Shown: piece by piece, positions 1,495-8,465 of the stretch | How the letters are laid out: each line of letters begins with the position of its first letter | How positions within the stretch are numbered: position 1 is the stretch's first letter | NCBI GenBank assembly: GCA_900557355.1 | Contig: USSR01000121.1 | Location: 1 to 13,275 of the forward strand | Origin: an uncultured Bacteroides sp. | GTDB lineage: Bacteria; Bacteroidota; Bacteroidia; Bacteroidales; Bacteroidaceae | DNA length: 13,275 nt | Direction of reading: 5' to 3' | Position numbers and translations under genes: made by a program | The notes under the pieces: model-generated | Told to the model about the DNA's origin: nothing | Seen by the model: only the letters and a program-made list of their open reading frames with translations | Databases searched by the model: none

Positions 1495-2094
1495 TTATGA
1501 CCTTAACTTCTCAAATGCTTCTGCAAAGAATTGATTGAACCAACTATAGGAACGTTTTGTAACTTCATGCTTTGCAGACTTCTTAATATAGATAGCAACA
1601 ACTTCTCCAAAGTTTGTATTTCCATCTATGAAAGTGATATTATCAAATAGATGTAGATTTTGCTGCATTCGCTTTATTCCTTCATAGAAATTGTATTCTA
1701 TTATTTCGTCTGCAACATCATGCCCTCCAAACATCTTCCTCTGCATTACTCTGTAAGTACTGTCATCCAGTGAAGCTAATCCAAAGTAAAAGAGTGTAAT
1801 CTTATATCCTGCTTCCTTGAATTCATTAATCATATTAAGAATAAGGTCATTGGAGAAGTTGGTTTCAAATGCGAAGTCTTTCTGTAGTGTGATTGCATTA
1901 TCTTTCTGTTTCTGCAATTCACCTGCTACTGTTCCACCTATCCAACGTTCTTCCCACTCTGGATGTTCTTTGCGTAGATTAAGCGCAAGTAAATCACCAT
2001 CGAAAGAATCGCAATGAATATAATAGGAGCATAATCTACTTTTACCTGCTCCATTTGGACCTGCTATGACTGTGAATTCTGGACGTGCTTCCAT
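1495..2094 (-). CDS. Zeta-type toxin / P-loop kinase-like protein
   Basis: The 199-aa protein opens with the Walker A motif GPNGAGKS at residues 12-19. The zeta-family signature ETNFS follows at 77-81, then YRVMQRKMFGGHDVADE at 114-130. Zeta toxins are kinases; the characterised ones phosphorylate UDP-N-acetylglucosamine and so block cell-wall synthesis. In classical zeta proteins the GGHxVP segment is followed by an arginine pair. Here the equivalent stretch reads EIIEYNF with no arginine, so nucleotide handling may differ. The gene starts 3 bp after the stop of its small upstream neighbour, so the two are co-transcribed and probably form a toxin-antitoxin pair. It is the last element gene before the left junction, a suitable place for a stabilising module. 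Catalytic activity is inferred from motifs only. Confidence 0.8.
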   Translation of the reverse strand: MEARPEFTVIAGPNGAGKSRLCSYYIHCDSFDGDLLALNLRKEHPEWEERWIGGTVAGELQKQKDNAITLQKDFAFETNFSNDLILNMINEFKEAGYKITLFYFGLASLDDSTYRVMQRKMFGGHDVADEIIEYNFYEGIKRMQQNLHLFDNITFIDGNTNFGEVVAIYIKKSAKHEVTKRSYSWFNQFFAEAFEKLRS

Positions 2095-2097
2095 GCT

Positions 2098-2379
2098 CTA
2101 CCTGTTTAGTAAGTAAGCATATTTACCTTGTCCTTTGTCTGCAACACGTGACAAAACTTTGTAGCTTCTTTCTTTACGATTGAACTCTACCAAGTCTTCG
2201 CCTCCATCTGGATTAGCTAAATGGATATTCCCTTTGTTGTCTCTATAAGGTATAGCAATCCCTTTACTCCATCCTTCTAAGTAAATGCGTTCTACTTCCT
2301 TGCTTACTTCTTCATTTACCTGTTTGATGGTCTTACCATTAGATAGTTTGATATTCTCTATTTCAGCGTATTCACACAT
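2098..2379 (-). CDS. Small partner of the zeta-type protein, probable antitoxin
   Basis: This is a 93-aa protein with a helical N-terminal half (NGKTIKQVNEEVSKEVERIY) and a C-terminal half rich in charged and polar residues. I recognise no named domain. Its role is inferred from position: it lies directly upstream of the zeta-type gene, with 3 bp between stop and start and a shared promoter, as antitoxins of such pairs usually do. The ATG at 2379 sits at a sensible distance below a matching promoter. It contains no obvious DNA-binding motif, so autoregulation cannot be claimed. It could also be an accessory protein rather than an antitoxin. Confidence 0.65.
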   Translation of the reverse strand: MCEYAEIENIKLSNGKTIKQVNEEVSKEVERIYLEGWSKGIAIPYRDNKGNIHLANPDGGEDLVEFNRKERSYKVLSRVADKGQGKYAYLLNR

Positions 2380-2432
2380 AAGCTATTGTACATTTAGTTA
2401 GATTATTCAATAAGAGTTTATTATGCGTAATG

Positions 2433-2464
2433 CAAATGTAGCTAATTTCTAAGTATAGAACAAT
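2433..2464 (-). promoter_or_regulatory. Promoter of the zeta toxin-antitoxin pair
   Basis: The -7 element TACATTTG (2433-2440, minus strand) matches TAnnTTTG. ATTG at 2461-2464 is a 20-bp-spaced -33 element. Transcription would begin near 2426, leaving about 45 nt before the ATG at 2379. Confidence 0.6.
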
Positions 2465-2484
2465 ATCGCAATAGATAAGTTGCT

Positions 2485-2790
2485 TTAAATAGCATGGTAG
2501 ATTAATGTTTTAGTAGAATCTACATTCTTCTTTAGGTATTGATTCTTAATCGTCTGTTCCTCCAGTAAGTCAATTTCTCTACCTAATATATCTTCTAAGG
2601 AGTACTTAAAATCAAAATAGTTATCGAAGTAGTCGTTCACTTCTGCTTTATCGAAATCAACAACTAAATCAATGTCACTTTTGTCACTAAAGTGATTAGT
2701 GAGGATAGAACCAAAGACAAACAACTTATGTACCTTATGCTTTTTGCATAGGTCTATAATCTTCTGGATGTTGTTCTCTATTAGTTTCAT
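2485..2790 (-). CDS. MNT-type minimal nucleotidyltransferase, without a HEPN partner
   Basis: The 101-aa protein has the nucleotidyltransferase signature G27-S28, then D39 and D41 in SDIDLVVDF, and a third acidic residue D74 in REIDLLEE. This is the minimal pol-beta-like fold of the MNT group. In characterised type VII toxin-antitoxin pairs, MNT proteins add AMP to a HEPN ribonuclease partner. No HEPN-like gene is next to it: the zeta antitoxin lies downstream at about 105 bp and an unrelated gene upstream. It is therefore either a solo enzyme, the survivor of a decayed pair, or a protein acting on another partner. No convincing promoter is visible in the 118 bp upstream. Confidence 0.8.
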   Translation of the reverse strand: MKLIENNIQKIIDLCKKHKVHKLFVFGSILTNHFSDKSDIDLVVDFDKAEVNDYFDNYFDFKYSLEDILGREIDLLEEQTIKNQYLKKNVDSTKTLIYHAI

Positions 2791-2855
2791 GTTTTCTACA
2801 TGTTGTCATTGTAGATGTAACTAATTGATTTATATTGAATGTCTTTAGTTAATAA

Positions 2856-2897
2856 AGTACAAGCGCCTTGATAGGATTTATCCACAAGGCTTGTACT
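2856..2897 (-). terminator. Hairpin terminator after the 168-codon ORF
   Basis: Arms AGTACAAGCGCCTTG and CAAGGCTTGTACT pair with a small bulge around a 14-nt loop. The hairpin lies just downstream of the stop at 2908. It has no long T run, so its strength is uncertain. Confidence 0.55.
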
Positions 2898-2907
2898 ATA
2901 GGATTAC

Positions 2908-3354
2908 TTATTTACATTCAGAGCCTATCTTATTCCAGATAATAGAATAGAATTTGGATTCTTCACCTTTGTACTCACCTGTTACTAATTCGCACTTCTT
3001 TACGTGGATTAAGTCTTTTACTTCTATTGGATAATCTTGAAATGTGGGTGATTGTATTGTGTTATAATATGAATTCTGTTTATAAAATCTACTTCTGTCG
3101 ATTCTTTGGCTAATACCATTTGCTAAATCTCCTGTTTCGCTGTAAATTGCATTTATAAGAGTAGCGTTTGTGCCAAAGGGTTTTATACTTATAATATAAT
3201 AATAACCTGCTTGTATAGCATCAAAAGGTACTGCTGGCTTTGCTAAAGCCTTTTCACGTTCTTTTTGGAGTTCTCTCTTCTCTGATTCAGTTAGCTTATC
3301 ATATCTTTGCTTTTCTTCTCTTTGTTCTTTCTCTATAAGTTCAGCGTATGTCAT
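2908..3354 (-). CDS. Unrecognised protein with a charged N-terminal helix
   Basis: I do not recognise the family. From the ATG at 3354 the protein is 148 aa. Residues 1-38 (MTYAELIEKEQREEKQRYDK onward) are very rich in E, K and R and probably form one long helix or coiled coil. A mixed, likely beta-rich domain follows, with YYYIISIKPFG and a C-terminal FYSIIWNKIGSECK. An upstream ATG at 3414 keeps the frame open, but an exact -7 promoter element sits at 3384-3391 inside that extension. The start at 3354 is therefore preferred. No signal peptide or membrane segment is seen. The gene stands alone between a hairpin terminator and an upstream membrane gene. Confidence 0.6.
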   Translation of the reverse strand: MTYAELIEKEQREEKQRYDKLTESEKRELQKEREKALAKPAVPFDAIQAGYYYIISIKPFGTNATLINAIYSETGDLANGISQRIDRSRFYKQNSYYNTIQSPTFQDYPIEVKDLIHVKKCELVTGEYKGEESKFYSIIWNKIGSECK

Positions 3355-3383
3355 GATTTCATTGTTTAAAAAGTTATTATAAG

Positions 3384-3391
3384 CAAAGGTA
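3384..3391 (-). promoter_or_regulatory. -7 promoter element deciding the start of the downstream gene
   Basis: TACCTTTG on the minus strand lies 30 bp before the ATG at 3354. No good TTTG-like -33 element is visible. It argues against the in-frame ATG at 3414. Confidence 0.45.
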
Positions 3392-3481
3392 AGCAATATT
3401 CTATTACATTGCATGCTGAGAAGACACTTTTTTAATAGTAAAATGTTAATCTCGACTATATTGAGAGGGTAAATGTGAATA

Positions 3482-3952
3482 CTATACTAATGGTAGTATG
3501 AATTTGAATATTCCACAAACGAATCCCCATATTCCTGTTAAAGCTACACAAGCTAAGGTTATTCCAAATGCTACAATCCCTATTACTAATATTATCATCA
3601 GAATATTAAACCATGTACTCTTAGATAGTTGTTCTGCGTTTCTCTCCATATAATAGCGTTCTGGTATAAGAGGTTGCACCTTGCCTAATAATATATCGTT
3701 CAATGCATCTTTCTTAGCCTGTGACATCTTATCAACTATCCTTTGTGCTTCATCTAAGGTCATATCGCTAATATCTGTCTTTCTTAACAAATCCTTTAGG
3801 TGGTGGATATTCGCATTATCTAAATCTTGGTTACATAGTATGGTCTTGATTGCCTTACATTGCTTCATGCTAAAACAGATATTCATAATAATAGAATTTG
3901 AATTTTGTATTGGTAATCTGGTTGTAGAAGTATCTGAATACAGTCCTATCAT
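3482..3952 (-). CDS. Tail-anchored-like membrane protein of unknown function
   Basis: The 156-aa protein has a soluble N-terminal part of about 110 residues. It contains KDLLRKTDISDMTLDEAQRI, followed by KKDALNDILLGKVQPLIPER. The last 45 residues are almost wholly hydrophobic, with one or two membrane segments between about 115 and 155, so the soluble part would face the cytoplasm or periplasm from a C-terminal anchor. A second ATG 22 codons in (3886) is an alternative start. I do not recognise a family. The gene follows the lipoprotein operon terminator and has its own upstream region with a small dyad at 4028-4043. Confidence 0.6.
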   Translation of the reverse strand: MIGLYSDTSTTRLPIQNSNSIIMNICFSMKQCKAIKTILCNQDLDNANIHHLKDLLRKTDISDMTLDEAQRIVDKMSQAKKDALNDILLGKVQPLIPERYYMERNAEQLSKSTWFNILMIILVIGIVAFGITLACVALTGIWGFVCGIFKFILPLV

Positions 3953-4027
3953 ACTTTTGTCGCGAAAATGTTATTTCAACTGATAATTGCTATCATGTGA
4001 GTTGAGGTCTTGGATGAAAGTCTCCCA

Positions 4028-4043
4028 TACTCTTATAAGGGTA
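4028..4043. promoter_or_regulatory. Small dyad, possible operator
   Basis: A palindromic core CTTATAAG (4032-4039) is extended by TAC and GTA across one G-T position. It lies about 80 bp upstream of the membrane gene starting at 3952. A role as operator is only a suggestion. Confidence 0.25.
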
Positions 4044-4097
4044 CTATGTTTTAAATGTATCTGTTGGGTAGTAATCTCTGATTAGCTAAGGTTACAA

Positions 4098-4140
4098 GAA
4101 AAAAACAGCAAATGAGTTAATTCTCAAATGCTGTTCTTCT
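4098..4140 (-). terminator. Terminator of the lipoprotein operon
   Basis: Arms ACAGCAAATGAG and CTCAAATGCTGT form a stem with a two-base mismatch and a 6-nt loop. A run of A residues on the plus strand gives a T run on the transcribed side. It lies 19 bp after the stop at 4159. Confidence 0.75.
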
Positions 4141-4158
4141 TAGTTATTGATGAATGAG

Positions 4159-5388
4159 TTATCTTCTTTTCATTTCGTAGTTTTCTTCTGAAACCTTATC
4201 AGTTGCAGTAATATGTAATTCTGTACTGGTTAATTTAGTAATAGTTACGTCTTTCCCTTCTAACCAATCAGAGTTTCTAAGCACAAGTTTGTCACCATTA
4301 ATAGAGCTTGCAAAATAGTAGGTTTTGTAGCCATCGTTGTACCCACCATTACCATCTACATCTTCAAAGAATATATATTCACCTTTTACATCTTCTTCCC
4401 AATCCTCTTTAACTCCTTTGTCGTTATACTCCCAACCATAGCATTTTGTCATATCCCATGTGCCTTTAAGATTGGCTAAAGTAATTGGCTGCTCGTCCCC
4501 AATAAGTACACCTGTTTCAATATTAATTGCAAAGGTGTAATTCTTCTTTGTGCCATCATAGTGAATAATATCAGCTTTGTATTTCCATATTTTAGTTGAA
4601 TTGTCTATAATGCTGACTGTCACTTTAGCATTAGCTGGTTCATTACTTAGCTCTATTACCTCTACTCTCCACGTATTCTCGCCCAATTCATGATTTCGCT
4701 TAGCAATATAGAAGGCTTTAATGTCTTTGTATGCACAAATATCCTCTCTATATGAAATCTGATTTGCAAGATATAGCCCTTCATTGTAACTAAAGCCCTT
4801 CTTAGCAACAAAAATTGTATCTCCTGCCATTGTATAACAGCATTTTCCAATTGCTATAGACTCTTTATACCATCCATAAATATAGTCGTTAAGCCCTTTT
4901 AATTCTTTAACGCTTGTGGGTGTTTTAAATATATGTAAGTTCTCCCTATAATCATCACCATATAGTTGAACAAGTGCTACAAAACTATTAGCCTTTGAAT
5001 AGGTTTGGCATAAAGCTATGCCAGAGATTGTAACATCTTTGTACTCTCCATATCCCAAATTTACTCTTCGTGTCCTATTAAATTCTTTAGTGTCAGTCCA
5101 TTCAGCCAACTTCTGTTTAGATTCTCTATCAAATGAAGCTATCCATAGATGGTTCTTCCTTAATCCTGCAAAGTTAGCTTGTCCCCATCTGTAGTAGCTT
5201 GTATTATCATCAATTCCACTACAAGAACGCATCTCAATATCTTTATAATCTGTTATACCATATTGGGAGAATGTCTCGTCTACTCCTCCAATTGAGTATG
5301 TTTCCTTGTCTAAATCTTTCTCACAAGAATAAAATCCTGTACATAATGTAACCAGTAATAAGGTCACTAATAATCTTGATGTTTTCAT
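4159..5388 (-). CDS. Surface-type lipoprotein with a C-terminal lipocalin-like domain
   Basis: The 409-aa protein begins with a lipoprotein signal peptide: K2, R5, a hydrophobic core, and Cys22 in FYSC as the lipidation site. The residues after the cysteine (EKDLDKE) are acidic, like the signals that send Bacteroides lipoproteins to the cell surface. Residues 304-409 start with LKGTW and end with strands containing NGDKLVL and ITKLTSTELHI, a pattern typical of the lipocalin-like domains common in Bacteroides lipoproteins. The middle part (about 30-300) has many aromatic residues and I do not recognise it. The gene is the last of a four-gene operon, 21 bp after its upstream neighbour, and is followed by a terminator. 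A ligand or partner cannot be deduced. Confidence 0.75.
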   Translation of the reverse strand: MKTSRLLVTLLLVTLCTGFYSCEKDLDKETYSIGGVDETFSQYGITDYKDIEMRSCSGIDDNTSYYRWGQANFAGLRKNHLWIASFDRESKQKLAEWTDTKEFNRTRRVNLGYGEYKDVTISGIALCQTYSKANSFVALVQLYGDDYRENLHIFKTPTSVKELKGLNDYIYGWYKESIAIGKCCYTMAGDTIFVAKKGFSYNEGLYLANQISYREDICAYKDIKAFYIAKRNHELGENTWRVEVIELSNEPANAKVTVSIIDNSTKIWKYKADIIHYDGTKKNYTFAINIETGVLIGDEQPITLANLKGTWDMTKCYGWEYNDKGVKEDWEEDVKGEYIFFEDVDGNGGYNDGYKTYYFASSINGDKLVLRNSDWLEGKDVTITKLTSTELHITATDKVSEENYEMKRR

Positions 5389-5409
5389 GCGAATTAATAA
5401 TTATAGTTG

Positions 5410-5757
5410 TCAATAATGGCTATTTAAGCACTCTTTGATATTGTTGGTAAGGCGAGTATATATCTGCTCAAAACCAGACTTCCATTCATACAATGGTATC
5501 TTTTGTGAATACCAAGTTTCCACATACTCTGTTTCTATTGCAAATGATTTGTATTCTGCTATCTTGTCAAGCTCCAAGTGCATTCTTCCATAAGCCAAAT
5601 AGCACATTTCTAACAAGGGTTTAATTTTTGCTGCTTTGTAATACTGGTCTGCATTCAAGTCGCAAATATCACCTACTTGTGTCATGTATGAATTTATATC
5701 TGATACTTCTTTCATGACCTTATTAATCACTTCTTTATCTTCTTTTGAGTATTCCAT
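5410..5757 (-). CDS. Unrecognised small protein in the lipoprotein operon
   Basis: The 115-aa protein has no signal peptide and no membrane segment. It appears mainly helical, with an N-terminal stretch EDKEVINKVMKEVSDINSYM, a central LEMCYLAYGRMHLELDKIAEYK, and an aromatic patch VETWYSQKIPLYEWKSGFE. No known motif is seen. It lies 21 bp upstream of the lipoprotein gene and 23 bp downstream of the 136-aa gene, which indicates one transcript. It is presumably cytoplasmic and works with its operon partners. Confidence 0.65.
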   Translation of the reverse strand: MEYSKEDKEVINKVMKEVSDINSYMTQVGDICDLNADQYYKAAKIKPLLEMCYLAYGRMHLELDKIAEYKSFAIETEYVETWYSQKIPLYEWKSGFEQIYTRLTNNIKECLNSHY

Positions 5758-5780
5758 ATTATCTAAGTTTTATTAGTGTA

Positions 5781-6191
5781 TTATTTTAATGTAACATCAA
5801 TATGATTGTCTATGTAATCATTTAGCATACCTGTAATAACAAAGTCTTTGACTTCATTTCTAATATGCAGAGCAAGAGTGTTAAGAATATCCTTGCAATA
5901 ACTGTTTTGTCTGGAACTTGATAACGCATTTCTAAGCATTCTTAATATGTTATCATTATTGGTTGATAAGTTAGTTACTCTTTCAGTAGCTTCACTAACA
6001 TTACTATCTGTGAATTTAATCTCTTCTTTTACCTTTTGCAAATAAGTAAAGACATACGAACTGGATTTACAACCATGTGGTATTGTAAACTTCTGAATCA
6101 TAAAGTTCATTTGCGCTATTAATAGCACTTTAGCATCAAGGCTCAAATTGGGAGCAAAGAACCATGGAGTTCCTGTTTCTTTAATTGGCAT
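5781..6191 (-). CDS. Unrecognised 136-aa protein in the lipoprotein operon
   Basis: The protein starts MPIKETGTPWFFAPNLSLDA and looks soluble and largely helical, with no signal peptide or membrane segment. Its C-terminal half contains LRNALSSSRQNSYCKDILNT and ends in a charged region. No motif of a known family is visible. It is the second gene of the operon, 32 bp after the small membrane protein and 23 bp before the 115-aa gene. Its start is the only ATG near the preceding stop, so it is well supported. Confidence 0.62.
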   Translation of the reverse strand: MPIKETGTPWFFAPNLSLDAKVLLIAQMNFMIQKFTIPHGCKSSSYVFTYLQKVKEEIKFTDSNVSEATERVTNLSTNNDNILRMLRNALSSSRQNSYCKDILNTLALHIRNEVKDFVITGMLNDYIDNHIDVTLK

Positions 6192-6367: not shown

Positions 6368-6412
6368 AAGTCTATAAATTGTGTTTACCTGTCCCCTTTG
6401 GTAAACGAACAT

Positions 6413-6500
6413 AAAAAAGGCATGGGAACTAATTGCATATCTCATTCATCAGGTTCTTGCAAAACCTACCATACAAGATATAACAACAGTTGCCCATGCC
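6413..6500 (-). terminator. Segment 3:4 hairpin, predicted conditional terminator in the operon leader
   Basis: On the minus strand GGCATGGGCAAC (6500-6489) pairs with GTTCCCATGCC (6429-6419), giving eleven pairs and one bulged C. TTTTTT (6418-6413) follows directly. The loop holds two further stems: ATATCT with AGATAT, and AGGTT with AACCT. Segment 3 can instead pair with segment 2, which would prevent this terminator. Confidence 0.65.
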
Positions 6501-6560
6501 TAAACGATATATAGACTATTTTGTTAGAATAGGTATATAACATAAGCATGGGCGTTGTTG

Positions 6561-6647
6561 TTATCGTCTCTGTATGGTTTTCAAATTTGCAAGATTCGAT
6601 GAATAGAGACAATAACAAAACGCCTTTTCGTAAATATGTCCTTCCAT
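6561..6647 (-). CDS. Candidate 28-codon leader peptide of the attenuator
   Basis: The ORF starts with ATG at 6647, about 9 nt after the predicted transcript start, and begins MEGHIYEKAFCYCLYSS. It crosses all of RNA segment 1 and its TAA (6563-6561) lies inside segment 2. This is where a leader ORF would need to be for ribosome position to choose between the alternative hairpins. A ribosome paused early in segment 1 would leave segment 2 free to pair with 3 and spare the operon from termination. A ribosome reaching the stop would cover segment 2 and allow the 3:4 terminator. Tyrosine and cysteine codons are concentrated at residues 11-15. It could be a chance ORF: the 5' leader is very short and no ribosome-binding signal is evident. 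Confidence 0.4.
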   Translation of the reverse strand: MEGHIYEKAFCYCLYSSNLANLKTIQRR

Positions 6648-6661
6648 AGCTGGAATTGGGA

Positions 6662-6692
6662 CAAAGATACTTAAAGCGTTTGTATTAACAAA
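6662..6692 (-). promoter_or_regulatory. Strong Bacteroidetes promoter of the leader RNA and lipoprotein operon
   Basis: On the minus strand the -33 element TTTG (6689-6692) and the -7 element TATCTTTG (6662-6669) both match consensus, with 19 bp between them. It is the best promoter in the window. It lies in the gap after the recombinase stop at 6704. Confidence 0.8.
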
Positions 6693-6703: not shown

Positions 6704-7291
6704 CTAAAATGTTAGGCAATCATAGGTCTGTAGTAGTTCTTCCTGTCTTAATCCTAAGTAGCGTTTGGTTATGGCTATGTTGGAATGATTGAACAACTCC
6801 ATTAATTTGACTAAAGCAAGTTCAGCGTTATCTGCATTCTGATTATAAACTTGTCTGCCAAATGTTTTTCTTAGACTATGGCAACTAAAGTTCTTAATTG
6901 ATAGCTTGTACTCTGCTTTAATCTCCTTTAGAATAATGTTAATCCTTTGGATTGTGTACACTGTTCCCTTTTGACTGACTAAAACAGGTGCATTAATTCC
7001 AATGGGATTAATTTGCTTGTAACAGTCTGCAATATGTCGCTTTAGTTGGGAATTAATTCTAATGGTACGTTGTTTCCCTGTCTTGTGTTCAATAATAGAA
7101 AATTCGTCTACATTCAGAATATCATTCCACCTTAAAGAAAGAATGTCACTAATACGCAATCCCCAAAAGCAACCCAAACTAATAAGTAAGCTCATTTTGT
7201 AGTTAGCATCTTTATAGAGTAAACGTATTAGTTTCATTGCTTCATCCCATTGCAAAAAATCGCTTGTGGTTTGGCTGTACTTTAAATGCAT
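6704..7291 (-). CDS. Short tyrosine recombinase lacking the N-terminal core-binding domain
   Basis: From the ATG at 7291 the protein is 195 aa and consists of the catalytic domain only. All active-site residues are present: R46 in GLRISD, the beta-hairpin K70 in EHKTGK, H138 and R141 in HSLRKTFG, H169 in FNHSN, and the nucleophile Y178 in KRYLG. Full-size integrases are roughly 300-400 aa. Catalytic-domain-sized recombinases such as FimB and FimE (about 200 aa) invert DNA. A GTG at 7342 would add 17 residues overlapping a palindrome, so ATG is preferred. The gene lies far from the likely element end and a second integrase is present at the right, so its job is probably not integration of this element. 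Dyads at 7320-7394 suggest its own sites or operator. Confidence 0.82.
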   Translation of the reverse strand: MHLKYSQTTSDFLQWDEAMKLIRLLYKDANYKMSLLISLGCFWGLRISDILSLRWNDILNVDEFSIIEHKTGKQRTIRINSQLKRHIADCYKQINPIGINAPVLVSQKGTVYTIQRINIILKEIKAEYKLSIKNFSCHSLRKTFGRQVYNQNADNAELALVKLMELFNHSNIAITKRYLGLRQEELLQTYDCLTF

Positions 7292-7319
7292 AATGTTCAG
7301 TTTTAATAGTAGGTGAATG

Positions 7320-7394
7320 AAAGTGAACATTCCATGTAGCACCCAAATGTTAGATGTAATCTAACTACTTGAATGATAACAGAATGTTCACTTT
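7320..7394. promoter_or_regulatory. Two nested dyads sharing one centre, upstream of the recombinase
   Basis: The outer arms AAAGTGAACATTC (7320-7332) and GAATGTTCACTTT (7382-7394) are perfect 13-bp inverted repeats. The inner arms GTTAGAT (7349-7355) and ATCTAAC (7359-7365) are perfect 7-bp repeats. Both pairs are centred on 7357. A further half-site AATGTTCA (7292-7299) touches the recombinase start codon. This could be the recombinase's binding site or an operator. Confidence 0.6.
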
Positions 7395-7454: not shown

Positions 7455-8465
7455 CTAATCTAAAAACCACTTGTATTTCTCATCCCCATGTAAGGCTGAA
7501 TTTATGCCTACTGCCATTTCTGTAGCATTTAACGACCTGTCTAAGAAACTATCAATATAGGAACTCTTATTTGCACCTGTCAGCAAATTGTAGAATTTCC
7601 ACATATTAATATCACTGCCTAAACTACCAAAGTTTTCATCCTGTATGTATGCTTTAGATACACTATTAATTTGTGTATCAGTAAGCAACATTCTTGGAAT
7701 GTCCTTTTGATAGCCTTGTGGCAATGATTGATAAAGTCTCATTCTTCCTAATAGTTGGCAAAACTGGTGTTCAGTAAGATAAGAATCAGTAAGCGTTTGC
7801 ATCAAATGTATGTGTTTGGCTGGATTGTAGTTGTTGAACATTTCCAATACGACACGATATAACTCGTTAGTATTAGAAACTTCCAAACAGCTATTCAGCC
7901 CATCAGTAAACACACATAAGTTACAACATACTTGATTCTTAAACCCTATAAAGACCTTGAATTTCTCTATTCCCTTTTTGGAATATAGATTCATGTGATT
8001 ATAGGCACGAACGCCACCAATAGATAAGGTAAGTTTGTTCCCTTCAATCGTTTCATAGATAGTTGGCACTTCAAAACAGAACATCATTCTCTCATAGTAT
8101 TGTGTCTTGTCAGATTCTAAAAGTTGGTTCACTGGTTTGTGTATAGCTTCTGGAATACGACCTTTAACAATGTGTGATACTCTAATGTCTGGTTTGTCAA
8201 TTCGTTCACCACTAAAGAATGAGTTTGCAGCATCCCAAACAGTTTCAATAAAGTTAGGGTGTGAGATTGTAAGTTCATTGTCCTTAGAAAAGACTGGCAC
8301 AATACAATCTGTCTTTAAATGCTGTAAATCAACTTCTTTTGTGTTAGCTTCAATGAAGTGTAGATTATCCTTTTTAGGTTGTTCCACTACTTCCATGTAA
8401 TCAACTGTTTCAGCGATTTCTTGTAAATCACTTCTTCTCTTAGGTAGTAAGTCTAATGCTTCCAT
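7455..8465 (-). CDS. DUF3871 family protein
   Basis: The 336-aa protein carries the hallmarks of DUF3871: the segment ELTISHPNFIETVWDAANSF, then PDIRVSHIVKGRIPEA and the region SIGGVRAYNHMNLYSKKG. The C-terminal part contains the glutamine- and leucine-rich stretch HQFCQLLGRMRLYQSLPQ and ends MWKFYNLLTGANKSSYIDSF. This family is common on Bacteroidetes mobile elements and has no established activity. Length is normal and the frame is intact. The start is 3 bp after the stop of the small membrane protein upstream, so the two are co-transcribed. It is downstream of the candidate origin region and upstream of the recombinase, suggesting a role in the element's replication or maintenance module; this is inference. 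Confidence 0.85.
   Translation of the reverse strand: MEALDLLPKRRSDLQEIAETVDYMEVVEQPKKDNLHFIEANTKEVDLQHLKTDCIVPVFSKDNELTISHPNFIETVWDAANSFFSGERIDKPDIRVSHIVKGRIPEAIHKPVNQLLESDKTQYYERMMFCFEVPTIYETIEGNKLTLSIGGVRAYNHMNLYSKKGIEKFKVFIGFKNQVCCNLCVFTDGLNSCLEVSNTNELYRVVLEMFNNYNPAKHIHLMQTLTDSYLTEHQFCQLLGRMRLYQSLPQGYQKDIPRMLLTDTQINSVSKAYIQDENFGSLGSDINMWKFYNLLTGANKSSYIDSFLDRSLNATEMAVGINSALHGDEKYKWFLD

Follow-up and report, generated by a model that had tools for sequence, protein, structure and literature searches.

Between a tyrosine recombinase gene and a series of mostly short genes on the same strand, a 13,275-nt stretch of DNA from an uncultured Bacteroides sp. (called here, at its full length, the window) encodes a putative leader RNA with four segments that can pair in alternation. 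What such an RNA might do, and what would make it choose among its pairings, is the question that this locus raises. The initial annotation answered it with ribosome-mediated attenuation, in which translation of a 28-codon ORF, possibly in response to ribosome stress, would decide between an antiterminator and a terminator. Comparison with related loci points elsewhere. We regard it as probable that the element belongs to an uncatalogued family of leader RNAs that lie 5' of genes across the Bacteroidota and act in cis as two-state switches, and the comparative evidence indicates that a conserved leader peptide is not their common trigger.

Results

Two alternative folds of the window leader

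The element opens with a promoter that had been called near-perfect; it is of the Bacteroides type, with TTTG and TATCTTTG against the consensus TTTG / TAnnTTTG given in PMC7366714 (Table 1). Four alternately pairing segments on the minus strand (6692-6412) were recovered both by reading the sequence and by folding, and can be arranged as state I, with the 1:2 and 3:4 pairings, or as state II, with 2:3. The 1:2 stem does carry the one bulge described, with 20 pairs in the constrained fold instead of the 19 claimed, and the 2:3 pairing with its long flanks forms part of the minimum free energy fold. The 3:4 pairing is followed by six T (6418-6413) as reported, but the count of eleven pairs does not stand, since the inner part pairs further.

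At -84.9 kcal/mol, the minimum free energy of the window leader lies far below that of shuffled sequences (-46.95 ± 4.38 kcal/mol; z -8.66; 0 of 200 shuffles as low) and corresponds to state II; forcing state I yields -75.4 kcal/mol, a cost of 9.5 kcal/mol. With state II some 10 kcal/mol more stable, state I would need kinetics or a factor in order to matter. Folding in windows that mimic transcription had been proposed as a check; prefix folds give 1:2 first, and 2:3 replaces it after segment 3 and the next loop have been made. The U-tract is itself paired in the state II fold of the window, with A residues ahead of segment 1, and state II might therefore also end transcription. Over a set of 98 loci (97 distinct, as L078 and L121 are the same element), the whole fold is better than a split fold by 10.6 ± 4.1 kcal/mol, against a gain of just 0.8 ± 1.4 kcal/mol in 150 chimeras.

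Table 1. Features of the window leader and its neighbours, in the order of transcription
Feature	Position	Strand	Remarks
Tyrosine recombinase, 195 aa	6704..7291	-	upstream of the leader; PF00589, E 2.9e-19 on the slightly longer ORF 6704-7342
Promoter	6662..6692	-	TTTG 6692-6689, spacer 19 nt, TATCTTTG 6669-6662
28-codon ORF	6561..6647	-	ATG 6647, TAA 6563-6561; not conserved in the family
Segment 1 (GGCGTT...GTCTCT)	6605..6624	-	5' strand of hairpin A
Address word x (ATTCATC)	6598..6604	-	complement of x' at 6450-6444
Loop A core (CTTGCAAA)	6586..6593	-	complement of 6463-6456
Address word y (ACCATAC)	6572..6578	-	complement of y' at 6474-6468
Segment 2	6546..6571	-	partner: 1 in state I, 3 in state II
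Hairpin C, AU-rich	6501..6545	-	between segments 2 and 3; few bases only in short-form relatives
Segment 3	6476..6500	-	partner: 2 in state II, 4 in state I
Address word y' (GTATGGT)	6468..6474	-	
Loop B core (TTTGCAAG)	6456..6463	-	
Address word x' (GATGAAT)	6444..6450	-	
Segment 4	6419..6443	-	GTTCCC at 6429-6424; partner: 3 or segment 5
U-tract, six T	6413..6418	-	after segment 4
Hairpin 5	6383..6406	-	stem GTTTACC/GGTAAAC, loop AAAGGGGACA; read from sequence
Segment 5 (GGGGAC)	6396-6391	-	complement of segment 4 GTTCCC, one G-U
Likely first array gene, 47 aa	6224..6367	-	small membrane protein, MEWFVSII start; ATG 45 nt after element
Co-oriented, mostly short low-GC genes (rAID-like)	1495..6191	-	after the leader

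Compensatory change in both folds

Compensatory changes in aligned homologous leaders had been put forward as a test of the pairings, and they were found for 1:2 and 3:4 as well as for 2:3. The alignment (A1) holds 51 of 53 elements, L002 and L041, with an extra hairpin in loop B, being excluded; L006, on the same contig as L005, was excluded throughout. For state I, covariation reaches 0.218 as against 0.130 in shuffles (0 of 500 reach it), 88.6% of cells are paired (83.3 in shuffles) and 29 pairs show two-sided change (18.9 in shuffles). State II covariation is 0.419 against 0.181, again with 0 of 500 shuffles reaching it and slid controls at 0.084-0.102, while 86.4% of cells are paired (72.3%) and 419 cells are changed on both sides (141.7). 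Two of five measures are weaker for this fold: pairs with two-sided change (36 vs 30.7, reached by 6 of 500 shuffles) and further types (111 vs 104.8, reached by 26 of 500). Short apical stems in each hairpin also covary (GAAAT/ATTTC, GGAAT/ATTCC, GTAAT/ATTAC), and hence hairpins A and B look like structures in their own right and not just like the arms of one long hairpin. Sequence comparison thus supports mutually exclusive pairings that are kept by compensatory change.

A leader family in the Bacteroidota

In a distant DNA search, two plasmid records of Bacteroides finegoldii came up whose matching part is non-coding and follows a recombinase gene, and a strict 3:4 pattern found 48 stretches in the genome collection, 47 of them named Bacteroidota and one labelled Clostridium. 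A contig labelled uncultured Clostridium (L008) carries a Bacteroides-type element and recombinase and is probably misbinned. The covariance model R1, built from 51 elements and holding state I pairs only, has matches in 100 of 295 sampled Bacteroidales genomes and in 31 of 395 sampled genomes of the phylum; copy numbers are lower bounds, at most eight candidates having been scored per genome of the order and at most six per genome of the phylum. Many matches are of a short form, about 150-175 nt long, with hairpin C reduced to a few bases. Two further arrangements were observed: a pair of tandem elements 48 nt apart before one gene (L106, 8997-9370, minus strand), and an element match at 15056-15297 of MT835917.1, near the end of this unannotated 15 kb faecal phage record.

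No Rfam 15 family covers the element at gathering score in the window and the sources of 30 loci, and none attains its cut-off in relaxed scans (window to E 10, 20 loci to E 0.1). Sub-threshold matches of the window to eukaryotic RNAs, of which the best is MIR1435 (34.2 bits against a cut-off of 94), were put down to chance matching by a long hairpin. Beyond Rfam 15, literature searches by words and by sequence words, at the level of titles, returned no description of this leader RNA, and the motif is absent from the portion of PMC10470768 that was consulted.

A fifth segment before the start codon

At least five T occur in the last 8 nt of the element in 92 of the 98 loci. Past this U-tract stands a small hairpin with a loop, segment 5, that is the complement of segment 4 GTTCCC, at a median distance of 19 nt among exact matches. 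The 6-nt test scored 89 of the 98 loci and gave an exact match between segments 4 and 5 in 31, where 1.6 are expected. The two segments covary: eight pair types occur, seven of them besides GTTCCC/GGGAAC (e.g. GCTTCC/GGAAGC, AGTCCC/GGGACT), although some of the rare ones come from a single locus whose stem is poor (L113, L122). A 5-nt match is present in 67 of the 89 (a raw count), leaving 22 scored loci without even that; the stem test, which took just these 67, found at least five pairs around segment 5 in 64%, against 29% in shuffles. The window itself, with GTTTACC-AAAGGGGACA-GGTAAAC at 6406-6383, has one G-U to segment 4 and is for this reason not counted under exact-match rules.

In 53 of the 98 loci, the element is followed at 35-70 nt by an ATG that opens 60 codons or more, as compared with 0 of 98 for the upstream antisense control and a mean of 7.3 (maximum 18, 200 rounds) for random anchors, and the comparison makes a position ahead of start codons the usual one for the family. 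The window falls outside the 53 because 60 codons are required and an ATG inside the element end was taken; its first gene is likely the one encoding the 47-aa protein, not the longer ORF starting inside the element. Placed past the U-tract and ahead of the start codon, segment 5 could be under selection only in transcripts that run on beyond the U-tract. To judge from this location, segment 5 implies that transcripts would often pass 6413, and it argues against reading the 3:4 hairpin as a strict terminator.

Variable address words in the hairpin loops

What had been noted as long flanking pairing proved to be complementarity between the loops of hairpins 1:2 and 3:4, in three blocks (x:x', core and y:y'). 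Among the 51 of 53 elements kept after removing identical halves, the loop duplex of an element with its own partner has -37.2 ± 2.7 kcal/mol and cross duplexes -18.9 ± 5.9 kcal/mol; the own partner is best in 35 of the 51, the rest being mostly beaten by copies with common words. Because R1 was built without loop-loop pairs, its hits outside the training set constitute an independent test. Own and cross duplexes average -36.7 and -15.5 kcal/mol in 28 hits from the order, with 26 ranking their own partner first, and -33.7 and -17.3 kcal/mol in 28 hits from the phylum, with 24 doing so. Copy by copy, the compared elements match x to x' and y to y'.

Between relatives, the words vary more than most of their surroundings, as loci with 83-95% alike flanks illustrate. 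In seven loci with upstream flanks 83% identical, x, y, y' and x' are 51, 45, 35 and 56% identical, segment 1 is at 88%, segments 2, 3 and 4 are at 94-98% and hairpin C at 75%. Five loci with 95% flanks, three of which have one address, show 62, 41, 59 and 79% for the same words, 79% for segment 1 and 93-100% for the rest, and three loci with 95% flanks show 33, 48, 29 and 50%, with 69% in apical loop B. In three Prevotella-type loci (flanks 74% upstream, 99% downstream) the words are at 56, 48, 60 and 38%; apical loop B (51%) and segment 1 (70%) are also low. Words are shared nonetheless: among the 35 elements, the only ones that could be segmented, x is common to 17 element pairs against 2.1 expected and y to 3 against 0.22, with 31 distinct x/y combinations. 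Such words in new combinations may reflect recombination, descent or a limited vocabulary.

Neither of the two addresses that were searched has a third copy in its home genome, and the idea of a trans partner elsewhere in that genome was rejected for both. Other genomes gave five further address matches, in four genomes, and these are taken as random, since the core between the words is absent and a reversed control pattern gave three. A loose pattern of the window address has 44 matches in viral contigs.

Recombinases and genes around the element

Ross et al. 2019 is reportedly the source of rAID. The operational definition of a rAID in PMC12247911 asks for a tyrosine recombinase, homologous to BF9343_RS08045, that lies ahead of two or more genes in the same orientation with less than 41% GC. 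Of these marks, the window shows a tyrosine recombinase and a co-oriented array with 31-38% GC, which gives it the look of a recombinase-associated (rAID-like) array of genes. Its recombinase is 94% identical to a B. fragilis protein named site-specific integrase; a tblastn search against plasmids gave 883 records, all below 60% identity and 554 of them from Enterococcus. A rAID array would be expected to hold orphan immunity genes; among the array and edge genes scanned in the window, Pfam names just a nucleotidyltransferase, a weak Zeta_toxin and DUF1622. The small nucleotidyltransferase (2485-2790, minus) matches the PADLOC candidate PDC-S09 (E 9.9e-31), and the weak Zeta_toxin match (199 aa) comes right after a 93-aa ORF, the two standing in a toxin-antitoxin-like order at 1495-2379 (minus). 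Past the far end of the array, a C-terminal fragment of a GGGtGRT protein (1082-1262, minus; PF14057, profile 272-327 of 327) may show where the island was inserted.

A related recombinase gene ends at most 1.2 kb upstream of the element in 15 of 53 loci, a lower bound because several loci have incomplete upstream sequence. With two references used, ten of the 15 are of the window tyrosine type (one a fragment) and five of a serine type, the latter assigned by Pfam for L001 and L002 and by similarity to L001 for the other three. In the remaining 38 no related recombinase was seen within 1.2 kb upstream, six of them holding less than 1.2 kb; in L045, one of the six, the tyrosine type is present in its genome (G008) farther out. 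The same site upstream of the leader is occupied by two unrelated recombinase families (L001, L002, L022, L026 and L046 as against the window, L003, L005, L015 and L048). Several of these islands share a DUF3871 gene ahead of the recombinase, be this of the tyrosine or the serine type: at 7455-8465 (minus) in the window, at 12453-13475 in L001, and in L003, L005, L015, L022, L026, L039 and L048. Downstream, the cargo scan covered 76 of the 92 first genes found, and these are unrelated (LRR_5 in 6, Lipocalin_4 in 6, DUF5640 in 4 and TerB in 3 of the 76, the rest scattered). A shared function of the downstream genes was rejected, given the scatter of Pfam matches over the 76.

Discussion

The two-state cis switch that we favour would operate as follows. 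State I would consist of hairpin A (1:2) and hairpin B (3:4, U-tract included), the latter terminator-like, with segment 5 left free. We infer that passage to state II would start when the complementary cores of both hairpin loops meet, a kissing step assumed by analogy with the antisense RNAs of pT181/ColE1-type plasmids, after which strand exchange would proceed outward via x:x' and y:y' to yield one long 2:3 hairpin. Segment 4, freed from segment 3, could then pair with hairpin 5 beside the start codon. The state adopted would set downstream expression, presumably through readthrough at the U-tract and possibly through translation, on which segment 5 could act.

Leader-peptide attenuation, in which the choice between 2:3 and 3:4 would follow from translating the 28-codon ORF, was the initial proposal. 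The window does contain this ORF, which ends in segment 2 and overlaps segment 1 as in trp-type leaders, and six other loci have an ATG ORF in a comparable place. Nonetheless, this makes seven of 98 loci in total, or 18 of 98 when GTG and TTG are admitted (raw counts); the frame that opens the window ORF (GGACAT ATT) hits a stop just before segment 1 in L001 and L003, and the window ORF has no run of a single amino acid. The refuting condition set initially, that homologous loci keep the genes but not the pairings or the ORF, has a mixed outcome: the pairings persist in relatives and the ORF does not. Since the ORF is not kept, ribosome stalling or ribosome stress as the signal is without comparative support, and we consider this mechanism highly improbable. 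The suggestion that the element works as DNA, a large inverted repeat serving as a recombination or cassette site (attC-like, or a MITE), can point to a near-palindrome of about 150-225 bp, to the related recombinase within 1.2 kb upstream in the 15 loci and in the genome of L045, and to the multiple copies in a genome, of which some lie close to the ends of contigs. It seems very unlikely to us all the same, in view of the 38 loci where that recombinase was not seen (six with less than 1.2 kb upstream, among them L045, which does have it), of the bias in orientation and start-codon distance, of apical stems that covary separately and differ between the arms, which a DNA-paired repeat does not need, and of an integron integrase model (TIGR02249) scoring 28.2 bits against a cut-off of 265. 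A guide of the bridge-RNA type, whose internal loops x|y and y'|x' would address DNA, is hardly credible: two hairpins with variable internal-loop words do resemble the two loops of such an RNA, but the x and y words pair with each other, the IS110 transposase model is absent from the scanned proteins of the window, L001 and L002, and the word pair is absent elsewhere in the home genome for the two types searched. The idea that x and y have targets in nearby DNA was rejected as well, the words giving 25 hits in the surrounding DNA against 27.6 expected (machine-cut words, some of them mis-cut).

The behaviour of the words bears on whether the leader acts in cis alone. The pace at which both x and y change seems higher than a switch working purely in cis would call for, a point against the explanation that we favour; rapid change would be expected where pairing between copies has to be avoided. 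A released leader acting also in trans would pair with nascent leaders of the same address, giving control of like against like, as in antisense-controlled plasmids, with x and y as compatibility types. Several observations suit it: among loci with related flanks, conservation is lowest in x and y for sets T and F and among the lowest there for sets S and P, the words recur in new combinations beyond expectation for both x and y, and genomes hold several differently addressed copies (five in G001). On the other side, the two searched addresses have no third copy in their own genome, a short leader RNA would have to accumulate, and word sharing may be no more than descent or recombination; we find the trans reading unlikely. 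Within the cis switch, we infer that x and y vary so as to avoid pairing between copies. A bolder form of the cis switch, entertained here as a tentative and rather doubtful proposal, sees self-addressed switches across the phylum, each with a private two-word code and a kissing-initiated flip. The code would be present twice, in complementary form, and let the two hairpins of a leader recognise only each other; codes would diversify from locus to locus lest a released leader flip related ones in trans, and would act as compatibility types among mobile arrays.

Should the cis switch be confirmed, about a third of sampled Bacteroidales genomes (100/295), many of them with multiple copies, would carry a switch that is absent from Rfam 15. 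It would precede surface lipoproteins, BspA-like proteins, small unknown proteins and mobile gene arrays, providing a common layer of control for seemingly unrelated genes, and its loops would amount to a natural set of candidate orthogonal loop-loop pairs.

Among described systems, the rAID clusters of Bacteroidales are credited in PMC12247911 with 'conserved intergenic sequence motifs', and the window resembles them in its tyrosine recombinase and its co-oriented, mostly short genes of low GC. The RNA family, in contrast, is found also after serine recombinases and where no recombinase is seen. DUF805 RNA (RF03081), a cis element that shares these leaders, trails the element by about 40 nt in L089 (1700-1765), L092 (1390-1458) and L096 (704-773) but is a separate motif: a second copy in L089 (2664-2732) stands before the next gene with no element ahead of it. 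Transcription attenuators of the trp type are four-segment leaders, and the family shares with them the promoter, segments 1-4 with exclusive 1:2, 2:3 and 3:4 pairings, and the U-tract. It works like an alternating leader of this kind, but it fails the leader-peptide test, and it differs further in the mutually complementary loops of 1:2 and 3:4, in the addition of a fifth segment and in the placement of one leader type before unrelated genes. To our knowledge, neither mutually complementary loops with a fast-changing code nor a fifth pairing segment is known from any attenuator. The closest parallel to the loops themselves is offered by the antisense-RNA attenuators of pT181/ColE1-type plasmids, in which hypervariable loops keep their complementarity. 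Here, however, both partners reside at separate sites of one RNA, and each change of address would hence need two coordinated changes.
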